Source: Actinomycetota bacterium (lineage in GTDB: Bacteria; Actinomycetota; Acidimicrobiia; Acidimicrobiales; MedAcidi-G1). Taken from it: DNA of 64,000 bases. This document shows positions 1,191 through 10,786 of this stretch, piece after piece. Where the stretch lies: contig JACNKQ010000075.1 of assembly GCA_014381945.1 (NCBI GenBank), positions 25,905 to 89,904 on the forward strand, read 5' to 3'. How positions within the stretch are numbered: the stretch's first letter is position 1; each line of letters opens with the position of its first letter. The notes beneath the pieces are model-generated. The model had not been told where the DNA came from and ran no database searches. It saw nothing but the letters and a program-made list of their open reading frames with translations. A program made the translations under genes and the position numbers.

Positions 1191-1670
1191 CTACGCCAGC
1201 GGCCCGGCGGCGAGGACCATCCCGTCCTCATCGGCCCACAGCCACATCCCCGGAGAGAGGTCGGCGCCGGCCACGTTCACGGTCACGTCCCGCTCGCCCA
1301 GACCCTGCTTGACACTTCGGCGCGGGCACATCCCACGGGCACGGATCCCGACCGGCGCCGCTGCAAGCTCCGGAACGTCGCGCACGCAACCGTCCACGAC
1401 GACGCCCGCCCAGCCGTTGGCTGCTGCCATCCCGGCCAGGTTGCCGCCGACCATGGCGCACCGGCTCGATCCCTCGCCGGCGACCACGAGCACGCGCCCC
1501 GCACCCGGTTCGGCCAACGCCTCCCGGACGAGCGAGTTGTCCTCACAGGCGGCAATCGTCGAGATGGGGCCCCCGAATGCAGCGACGCCGCCAAAGGAGA
1601 TGAAGCCGCCATCGAGCACGCGGACGGCATCGCCGAACTCGTCACAGAGGTCGGCCGTCGGGGTCGTCAT
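1191..1670 (-). CDS. RraA-like protein / HMG (4-hydroxy-4-methyl-2-oxoglutarate) aldolase family
   Basis: 159-residue RraA-fold protein. The family includes class II pyruvate aldolases (HMG/CHA aldolase) and the RNase E inhibitor RraA. The family motif is clear: GGNLAGMAAANGWAGVVVDGCVRD carries the glycine-rich loop and the metal/substrate Arg-Asp pair. The start is the ATG at MTTPTADLCDEF; an upstream in-frame ATG adds a basic, non-conserved stretch overlapping the neighbour. It is the last gene of a minus-strand operon and overlaps the end of the ArsC-like gene by 4 bp (ATGA). Aldolase is more likely than RNase regulation in an actinobacterium, but this is inference. Confidence 0.8.
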   Translation of the reverse strand: MTTPTADLCDEFGDAVRVLDGGFISFGGVAAFGGPISTIAACEDNSLVREALAEPGAGRVLVVAGEGSSRCAMVGGNLAGMAAANGWAGVVVDGCVRDVPELAAAPVGIRARGMCPRRSVKQGLGERDVTVNVAGADLSPGMWLWADEDGMVLAAGPLA

Positions 1671-2053
1671 GGTCGGCCTCCGAGGAAGTCGTAGAGCTTG
1701 TCCTTCGGCCGCCCGACGCACGACGTCAACGGCCCTCCACCACCGATGTCGCCCCTCACCAGGACCGGCCGCTGGAGCAGTGCCTTGCGACGGGCCAGCA
1801 ACTCGACCACCGCATCAGCATCACCGACATAGTCGTCCGGATCCAGGTCGAGCTTCCTGAACTGCGAGTCCTTTCGCACCAGGTCCTCGACGGGCCCATC
1901 GATGCCCTCTGCGATCCGTGAAAGCAGCACCTGGTCAGGGGGCTCTTTCATGTAGAGGACGACGTCGACCCCGATGCCCAGCTCCTCGGCGACCGCCAAG
2001 GCGTTCTTGCTGGCGTGTCAATGCGGGTTGTGGAAGACGGTGACATCAGCCAT
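1667..2053 (-). CDS. ArsC-family selenoprotein (in-frame TGA at catalytic Cys position), copy 1
   Basis: A 128-residue ArsC/YffB thioredoxin-fold protein if the TGA at 2018-2020 is read as selenocysteine (residue 12). The N-terminus reads M-A-D-V-T-V-F-H-N-P-H-U-H-A-S-K-N-A-L, matching the ArsC signature HNPxCxxSxxxL with Sec for the nucleophilic Cys. Downstream the frame stays open and keeps the three Arg regions of ArsC (EDLVRKD, LLQRPVLV and VGRPKDKLYDFL). A ribosome site (GGAAGGAA) precedes the ATG, and a SECIS-like hairpin follows the TGA. A conventional call would start at the TTG at 1999 and lose the active site. It sits between an unknown 102-residue gene and an RraA-like gene, with no ars genes nearby, so the substrate is uncertain. 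A nonsense-mutated pseudogene is the alternative, made unlikely by the second copy. Confidence 0.85.
1978..2013 (-). promoter_or_regulatory. Candidate bacterial SECIS element, copy 1
   Basis: Begins 4 nt after the TGA. Lower stem CCAGC/GCTGG, asymmetric internal loop (AAGAACG/A), 7-bp upper stem CCTTGGC/GCCGAGG (one T-G wobble) and the apical tetraloop GGTC. The loop starts 23 nt after the TGA. Bacterial SECIS elements lie inside the coding region just 3' of UGA and present a G-rich apical loop to SelB; a GGUC loop resembles the one I recall from E. coli fdhF. The fold was built by hand. Confidence 0.7.
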
Positions 2054-3920: not shown

Positions 3921-4385
3921 ATGCTCCAAAGTGCCCGAATCGGCTTCACCGACCAGCACGGCTTCCCCCGACGCCTCATCCTGCGCCTGGACGACGGCGG
4001 CTCCGTGCCCCGCTTCGAACAACTCCGGGCCCAACTGGCCGTCATGATCGCAGTCGGTCGCCTCGAACCCGGCTGCCGGCTGCCGACGGTCCGCGACCTT
4101 GCCACCCAGCTGGGAGTCGCACCCGGCACCGTCGCACGCGCCTACCGCCATCTGGAACAGGACGACTCGGTCCGGGGACGTGGGCGGCTCGGTACCTTCG
4201 TGGTCGACGAACCCCCACACTCCGAGCCGCTCCTGGAACGCCAGCAGCGCCTCGACGATGCCGCTCGAAGGTTCGCCGCCGAGACCCGTCAACTCGGGAT
4301 CAGGACCGACGACGCGATTGCTGCCTACCGCCAATCCGTCACCCGCCTGGCCGCGGAAGAGTCGGACCGACCTCAGGCCCCGTAG
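3921..4385 (+). CDS. GntR-family transcriptional regulator (YtrA subfamily)
   Basis: 154-residue regulator. The winged helix spans about residues 30-95 (RFEQLRAQLAVMIAVGRLEPG, then LPTVRDLATQLGVAPGTVARAYRHLEQ), followed by the GRGRLGTFV wing and only a short helical tail. The lack of a large effector domain is typical of the YtrA group, which often controls neighbouring transporter or membrane genes. Here the neighbours are divergent glnB and a convergent SDR, whose 3' end overlaps by 13 bp. Probably self-regulating through the palindrome upstream. Confidence 0.85.
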   Translation: MLQSARIGFTDQHGFPRRLILRLDDGGSVPRFEQLRAQLAVMIAVGRLEPGCRLPTVRDLATQLGVAPGTVARAYRHLEQDDSVRGRGRLGTFVVDEPPHSEPLLERQQRLDDAARRFAAETRQLGIRTDDAIAAYRQSVTRLAAEESDRPQAP

Positions 4386-9886: not shown

Positions 9887-9892
9887 TACCGT
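9887..9892 (+). promoter_or_regulatory. -10 element of ArsC-Sec/cupin/acyl-CoA synthetase operon (leaderless)
   Basis: TACCGT, 7 nt before the ATG at 9900. It supports starting the ArsC-like gene here, upstream of the in-frame TGA. Confidence 0.5.
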
Positions 9893-9899
9893 CGGCACA

Positions 9900-10244
9900 A
9901 TGACAGACCGTCTGCTGCTGTACCACAACCCCGGTTGAGGCAAGTCCCGTGGCGCCCTCGGCATCCTCGAGGAGCACGGCGTCGAGTTCGACGTCATCGA
10001 GTACCTCAAGGAACCCCTCGATCGGAACACGTTGGAGGGCTTCCTCGACATGCTCTCCGGAGAGCCCGCCGACCTCATCCGGGCCGACAAGGAACTCTGC
10101 CCGGACCCGGACACGATCGACGCCGATGGCATCGTCGACATCCTCCTCGCCCACCCTCGGTTGATGCAGCGCCCTGTCGCCGTCCTGGGCAACCACGCCG
10201 TCATAGCCCGTCCCTCCGAACTGGTCCTCGGACTGCTCGACTGA
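9900..10244 (+). CDS. ArsC-family selenoprotein (in-frame TGA at catalytic Cys position), copy 2
   Basis: A 114-residue ArsC-family protein if the TGA at 9936-9938 is decoded as selenocysteine (residue 13): M-T-D-R-L-L-L-Y-H-N-P-G-U-G-K-S-R-G-A-L. This is the classic ArsC signature YHNPRCSKSR with Sec for the nucleophilic Cys. The rest is a textbook ArsC: VEFDVIEYLKEPLDRNTLEGFL, PADLIRADKELC, LLAHPRLMQRPVAVLGN and VIARPSELVLGLLD hold the three conserved Arg positions. A -10 lies just upstream and a SECIS-like hairpin follows the TGA. Normal gene calling would start at the ATG near 10050 or skip the gene. The stop is 2 nt before the cupin ATG, so it heads a three-gene operon. A true arsenate reductase or another thiol/selenol reductase is possible. 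Confidence 0.88.
9947..9979 (+). promoter_or_regulatory. Candidate bacterial SECIS element, copy 2
   Basis: Begins 8 nt after the TGA. Lower stem CCGTG/CACGG, internal loop GCGC/AG, upper stem CCTCG/CGAGG and a 7-nt apical loop GCATCCT that begins with G, 22 nt after the TGA. It has the same two-stem design and the same loop distance (within 1 nt) as the element in copy 1, with different sequence. Hand-drawn fold. Confidence 0.68.
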
Positions 10245-10246
10245 AG

Positions 10247-10786
10247 ATGACAGGCCCGGTCCCACCGAACGCCGAAGACCCCGTCCAGGTCGTCGACACC
10301 GGACGCCCAACGCGACCGTCGCCACGTTTCTCGATCGTCCACGAATCCGACGTCCCCTGGCAGGAGGTCCGCGCCCAGCAGCACGGCGACCGCCGGGTGT
10401 CCGTCCACGAGAAGTTCCTCGAATGGTCCGGCGACCGGATGGTCGTGCTCGGCCACTACGACCCGGGCATGATCGTCGAGCGCCACGGCCACCGCAGCGA
10501 CCACCTCGTCTACGTACTCGAGGGCTCAGTCGACATCGGTGGCCGGCACTGCCCGTCCGGCACGCTCATCGTGCTCGAAGAGGGCGCCGCCTTCGGGCCG
10601 CTGGTCGCCGACGGAGACGAGGGCTGCGTCATGTTCGAAACCTGGCTCGACGACCCGCTCCCGGTCCCCGCCGAAGTCGACGGCTTCCGGTCGCTGCTCG
10701 CCGAGCACGGCGTCGAGCAACTCCCGAATCCTTCGTTCGAGGTGCCCGGCCACCCAGCGCCCGAGCGCTTCCCCGACCCCGCCTGA
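10247..10786 (+). CDS. Cupin-domain protein
   Basis: 179-residue single-domain cupin. Cupin motif 1 is in HYDPGMIVERHGHRSDHLVYVLEG and motif 2 in GGRHCPSGTLIVLEEGAAFGPLVA; metal-ligand His residues are visible in the first. No enzyme-specific features, so the role (dioxygenase, isomerase or binding protein) is open. It starts 2 nt after the stop of the ArsC-like selenoprotein and ends 4 nt before the acyl-CoA synthetase start, indicating translational coupling of all three. Confidence 0.78.
   Translation: MTGPVPPNAEDPVQVVDTGRPTRPSPRFSIVHESDVPWQEVRAQQHGDRRVSVHEKFLEWSGDRMVVLGHYDPGMIVERHGHRSDHLVYVLEGSVDIGGRHCPSGTLIVLEEGAAFGPLVADGDEGCVMFETWLDDPLPVPAEVDGFRSLLAEHGVEQLPNPSFEVPGHPAPERFPDPA

Follow-up and report, generated by a model that had tools for sequence, protein, structure and literature searches.

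The in-frame UGA of arsC-a, a gene for an ArsC-family protein, is almost certainly decoded as selenocysteine (Sec), as judged from its sequence and its relatives. A hairpin within the coding sequence, the loop of which starts 46 nt after the UGA, is probably the SelB site that directs this insertion. The features on which these readings are based lie in a window of 64,000 nt, the whole stretch of DNA that was analysed:

9900-10244, plus strand: arsC-a, predicted Sec-containing ArsC-family protein of 114 aa plus stop (PF03960, PDB alignment, model, conserved synteny)
9936-9938, plus strand: putative UGA selenocysteine codon of arsC-a at the catalytic Cys position, U13 corresponding to Cys12 of E. 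coli ArsC (alignment, conservation)
9978-9995, plus strand: displaced hairpin and candidate SECIS, GGCGUCG-AGUU-CGACGUC, with a loop that starts 46 nt after the UGA (RNAalifold, covariation, invariant codons); the far hairpin
9952-9977, plus strand: variable first hairpin after the UGA, which may be a spacer or a SECIS at the classical position; it forms well chiefly in Acidimicrobiia and has other registers elsewhere; the near hairpin
9887-9892, plus strand: TANNNT -10 element (TACCGT), 7 nt before the ATG, which implies a leaderless mRNA
1667-2053, minus strand: arsC-b, second predicted Sec-containing ArsC paralogue (PF03960, TGA in family genomes)
2018-2020, minus strand: putative UGA selenocysteine codon of arsC-b
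1984-2001, minus strand: arsC-b SECIS hairpin of the classical bacterial type, CCUUGGC-GGUC-GCCGAGG, with its loop 23 nt after the UGA

Translated from ATG 9900, arsC-a reads MTDRLLLYHNPG-[TGA]-GKSRGALGILEEHGVEFD..., with a single in-frame TGA (9936-9938); the frame closes with an ordinary TGA stop codon (10242-10244). The two paralogues match PF03960 (ArsC) with 32.6 bits (arsC-a) and 36.5 bits, against a cut-off of 24. Arsenate reductases are also the best PDB matches of ArsC-a. ArsC-a shares its fold and catalytic residues with the glutaredoxin-dependent ArsC of E. coli (R773; 1i9d, 1jzw; TIGR00014). In the alignment with 1jzw the TGA codon falls on the catalytic Cys12 (C12/U13), and Arg60, Arg94 and Arg107 correspond to R61, R91 and R104. 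ArsC-a differs from the E. coli enzyme in its predicted Sec for Cys, its sequence (~33% identity), its score under the equivalog cut-off and the lack of an ars operon. The preliminary description, made from the letters of the window, had proposed an ArsC-family gene starting at ATG 9900 with TGA at the Cys codon and three intact Arg motifs, and both proposals agree with the family match and the alignment. The UxxS motif is present in both paralogues, as UGKS in arsC-a and UHAS in arsC-b. An AlphaFold2 model of ArsC-a has a mean pLDDT of 91.9, and the solved structures closest to it are the ArsC proteins 3rdw, 3f0i and 1jzw. Spx and ArsC-related proteins (TIGR01617) have the same superfamily fold, with a weaker match (38 bits against a cut-off of 75); to our knowledge Spx is without the arsenate Arg triad.

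Downstream of the UGA of arsC-a, dN/dS is 0.21 and 0.33 in comparisons with two relatives; by this sequence measure, purifying selection is acting on the part of the gene that follows the UGA. The ArsC matches of the source genome (2.49 Mb, 97.5% complete) are arsC-a and arsC-b, and no Cys copy was found in it. arsC-b lies ~7.9 kb from arsC-a, where a paralogue with the same TGA had been placed about 8 kb away.

At least one ArsC match was present in 23 of the 25 family genomes examined, with arsC-a in 9 genomes and arsC-b in 22. All 31 matches carry exactly one TGA, and homologues from other phyla have TGA at this codon too, in keeping with the original argument that two chance nonsense mutations at one catalytic codon would be improbable. 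Gene order within the family is conserved around arsC-a and arsC-b alike. A scan of named genomes, one pattern of which favoured LEERGVEFD-like homologues, recovered the arsC-a type with the same TGA in Acidimicrobiales (including Candidatus Microthrix sp.), Candidatus Binatia, Gammaproteobacteria, Deltaproteobacteria and UBP10. The active-site context is HNPG-U-GKSR in many Sec forms, and HNPR-C-SKSR tends to occur in Cys forms. It is scarcely credible that translation really ends at this TGA, or that the codon arose by a sequencing error, with arsC-a a pseudogene or artefact. A lone in-frame TGA of either kind would have the same appearance in a draft MAG, and TGA is the main stop of the genome (48 of the 61 long frames in the window), but TGA occupies this codon in 9 of 9 arsC-a copies from the family and also in homologues from other phyla, two of them in a single chromosome-level Binatia assembly, and purifying selection and synteny extend downstream of the UGA.

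Two records met in the scan deserve mention. The Binatia chromosome OX638322.1 has two arsC-a type Sec genes (L081, L084), and in both the TGA is accompanied by the far hairpin. In a GenBank MAG with the title Bifidobacterium breve (L103, CAMBEL010000001.1, 4001-4315) there is an ArsC gene of the Acidimicrobiia Sec type, and the name of the record looks wrong.

A search for the Sec machinery, suggested in the preliminary description, retrieved every component sought from the source genome: tRNA-Sec (67.5 bits, anticodon UCA), SelA (387.8 bits) and SelB (264.7 bits), adjacent on contig C5, and SelD (362.5 bits), which has its own in-frame TGA in an SHGAG-U-GCK motif. Together with the conservation of TGA in the independent assemblies of relatives, this full set supports the selenocysteine reading put forward there. 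SelD (G000:C69:17731-18651, L057) thus appears to be a selenoprotein itself, with a putative SECIS whose GU-containing loop lies ~33 nt after its UGA. A second, weaker match to RF01852 (tRNA-Sec) in the source genome was rejected as a tRNA-Ser.

The presence of the Sec pathway follows the state of the ArsC codon. At the level of the order, ArsC-bearing genomes without tRNA-Sec (G026, G027, G029, G035) have Cys, and genomes with TGA-ArsC have tRNA-Sec. Among 296 Acidimicrobiia genomes, SelA was found in 37 of 37 with TGA-ArsC versus 33 of the 63 with only Cys-ArsC, the other 30 being without it (Fisher test, 3.8e-8). In G015, a family genome that is 85% complete, TGA-ArsC and SelD are present but neither tRNA-Sec nor SelA was found, probably through incompleteness of the assembly. 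Reading of the UGA as another amino acid, either Cys by a special tRNA or Trp, is very improbable. Variants of tRNA-Cys that read UGA have been reported in some bacteria, which counts for the Cys version, but here the genome has a complete Sec pathway, the occurrence of which follows that of TGA-ArsC, and the sole tRNA with a UCA anticodon in the loci scanned is tRNA-Sec. As TGA is the main stop codon in the window, there is no general reassignment of UGA.

A Cys/Sec phylogeny, also suggested at the outset, was built as a quick tree of 111 columns. Its most parsimonious reading has 10 Cys/Sec changes and its well-supported branches are compatible with a single origin; on the direction of change it gives no conclusion. 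An ArsC-like protein of the Acidobacteriota chromosome L124 (CP070717.1, about 3998-4000) has its TGA within a UxxC motif (CAST-U-GICRKA) and in this resembles the UxxC selenoproteins called 'arsenate reductase 2', which form a family of their own. In the tree and in the hairpin count this UxxC-type TGA protein was placed as Cys by a reading at the wrong Cys, and it was dropped from the Cys total (48).

Our candidate for the recoding signal of arsC-a is the far hairpin. Counted from the U of the UGA it occupies nt 43-60, as GGCGUCG-AGUU-CGACGUC or a variant, and 98.3% of cells are paired across 41 distinct sequences. Changes on both sides occur at 3 of the 7 pairs, and sliding the partner by 1-3 columns reduces pairing to 10-73%. 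The compensatory changes include C-G to G-C at pair 45/58 (L103), G-C to A-U at 46/57 (L096, L106, L119, L185) and C-G to U-A at 48/55 (L175). In L130 the loop is CGUG, and its G-U is kept although the amino acids change. Run on the longer arsC-a alignment with no structure supplied, RNAalifold returned the far hairpin as the sole consensus helix; with the alignment limited to the 54 nt that follow the UGA, it returned no consensus structure.

Codon usage points to the same element. Three codons under the far helix are invariant (GTC 29/29, GAG 31/31, TTC 31/31), where the rest of the genes would lead one to expect 0.42, 0.65 and 0.71, and the codon next to the helix is relaxed (GAC 17, GAT 15). 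The helix overlaps the conserved GVEFD protein motif, which partly underlies the hairpin and is mostly missing from Cys homologues. Under random synonymous recoding the hairpin would be expected in 18 of 50 sequences; it is observed in 49. The window contains 1264 TGA triplets; a hairpin of this type follows 2 of them, including the codon at 9936, against ~0.15 predicted by shuffling. The folding energy of the arsC-a region is not unusual (window z = 0.30).

The same comparison can be made across the ArsC family. A hairpin with a GU or GG loop at 17, 23 or 46 nt is present in 92 of 93 distinct Sec-ArsC genes versus 2 of 48 Cys genes, counts that are not independent because the sequences are related and that refer to three positions picked after inspection. 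The 46-nt position accounts for 49 of the 92 (two of these also have the 17-nt hairpin), the 23-nt position for 31 and the 17-nt position alone for 12; the remaining Sec-ArsC gene has a 46-nt hairpin with one broken pair. The far hairpin, with its AGUU loop, persists in a Cys-ArsC of Myxococcales (L094, 3994-4312), a pattern to be expected after a recent change from Sec to Cys.

With its 7-bp stem and AGUU loop, the far hairpin agrees with the loop and stem part of the bacterial SECIS model (a stem of 4-16 bp with a small loop that has G followed by G/U); it departs from the spacing part, its loop starting at 46 nt versus 16-37 nt. Canonical bacterial SECIS elements (E. coli fdhF type; PMC13188914) likewise have a G followed by U in a small apical loop. 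According to a May 2026 review, the 16-37 nt spacing holds for most bacterial elements, a subset of selenoprotein genes do not fit, and there are probably distinct classes (PMC13188914). In arsC-b and its relatives, CCUUGGC-GGUC-GCCGAGG shows compensatory changes and fits this spacing, its GGUC tetraloop standing at 23 nt. Another subgroup of the order has a hairpin at 17 nt, CAAUGC-CGUG(A/C)-GCAUUG, and arsC-a has neither of these two types.

A different assignment is that the near hairpin, with its apex ~21-26 nt after the UGA and hence in the classical window, is the SECIS of arsC-a, and that 9978-9995 serves some other purpose or arises as a side effect of the GVEFD codons. We consider this unlikely, if well worth keeping in mind. 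In Acidimicrobiia a G opens the loop of the near hairpin at a suitable distance, and there is a compensatory change at pair 24-34. Against this, its register varies between phyla, its loops are dissimilar, 77% of cells are paired overall and RNAalifold did not recover it as a consensus, whereas the far hairpin is near-universal, combines invariant codons with compensatory changes and has a distribution almost complementary to that of the near hairpins of other subfamilies. A lower stem pairing UGAGG with a downstream CCUC was rejected on inspection, as the downstream Leu codon varies. An Rfam scan of the window at gathering thresholds found only one tRNA and no SECIS family.

With the far hairpin as the signal, arsC-a would represent a separate class of SECIS elements in bacteria, in which a 7-bp stem carries an xGUx loop ~46 nt beyond the UGA; the class would be common to Acidimicrobiia, Binatia, Gammaproteobacteria and Deltaproteobacteria. 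We think it likely that such a class exists and that within the ArsC family the SECIS has moved among fixed positions at 17, 23 and 46 nt; L175 and L185, with two candidate hairpins each, are as expected of intermediates.

The mRNA of arsC-a is probably leaderless, with its start at ATG 9900. A -10 element 7 nt before this ATG had been claimed and is indeed there, and in most of the Acidimicrobiia homologues checked a TANNNT is kept at or near the same spacing while the surrounding sequence changes. The Binatia homologue L079 has a GGAGG Shine-Dalgarno-like sequence in place of TANNNT. On our model, the ribosome would read the mRNA from ATG 9900, and at UGA 9936 SelB would deliver Sec-tRNA-Sec(UCA) in place of termination. 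Insertion would be directed by the hairpin at 9978-9995, in whose AGUU loop the G-U is expected to be read by SelB. The product would be an enzyme of the ArsC/thioredoxin fold with the selenol of U13 held by Arg61, Arg91 and Arg104. Arsenate, or else a comparable oxyanion or disulfide, may be the target of this selenol, which a low-molecular-weight thiol or a redoxin would then regenerate.

arsC-a has an amidohydrolase gene on one side and cupin and acyl-CoA-ligase-like genes on the other, and the neighbours of arsC-b encode RraA-like and enoyl-CoA hydratase proteins. Neither the surroundings of arsC-a in the window nor those of five distant homologues (judged mostly by eye) contained recognisable ars genes, and none of the 25 family genomes yielded either of the arsenite exporters ACR3 and ArsB; arsenate is therefore weakly supported as the substrate. 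With C written for U, the TIGR00014 arsenate reductase equivalog gives 84 bits for arsC-a and 63.6 bits for its paralogue, below the cut-off of 106.05. The cupin-like ORF (10247-10786) begins 2 nt after the arsC-a stop; a comparison made with a mis-framed query found it beside arsC-a in the same genus but did not find it at several further loci of the family, in contrast to the acyl-CoA ligase gene after it.

From its sequence features ArsC-a would be a selenol-dependent reductase of the ArsC type, with arsenate probably, by a cautious estimate, as its substrate and otherwise a related redox role. A selenoprotein that is no arsenate reductase in the cell, acting as a general selenol redox enzyme (for example in deglutathionylation or the reduction of another oxyanion), is a serious possibility to which we give a little less than an even chance. 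The missing exporters, the unrelated metabolic genes beside both paralogues and the score under the TIGR00014 cut-off favour such a general role. The HNPxUGxSR signature and the conservation of all three arsenate-binding Arg residues speak against it, and arsenite could leave the cell by other routes, such as aquaglyceroporins or methylation.

Sec-containing ArsC with a UxxS motif was reported in 2005 from 14 Sargasso Sea sequences (PMC1088965) and in the GOS survey from 77 sequences (PMC2398784), and current reviews list it as ArsC 1, a Sec-containing arsenate reductase (PMC13188914). Since Sec-ArsC has been known from 2005, the ArsC-a protein belongs to an established kind of selenoprotein. 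Like arsC-a and arsC-b, the known Sec-ArsC 1 (COG1393/PF03960) is bacterial, belongs to the same Pfam family and has Sec at the catalytic Cys and the UxxS motif; the present case differs in the full Sec machinery of the genome, the two divergent Sec paralogues in conserved synteny and, for the arsC-a type, the covarying hairpin at 46 nt. What appears new is the recoding signal, a novelty that depends on the far hairpin and would be lost if the near hairpin is the SECIS. No description of a SECIS displaced to 46 nt was found in the literature searched, which did not take in the original ArsC SECIS figure or most subscription papers.

The occurrence of two Sec-ArsC paralogues in Acidimicrobiia genomes without ACR3 or ArsB exporters raises the question of the true substrate of Sec-ArsC. 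Tools based on the 16-37 nt rule would miss the arsC-a hairpin. The arsC-a family offers a concrete, covariation-backed candidate for a non-standard SECIS class with a wide host range and, since its sister genes use the classical position, the limit on the reach of SelB becomes directly testable.
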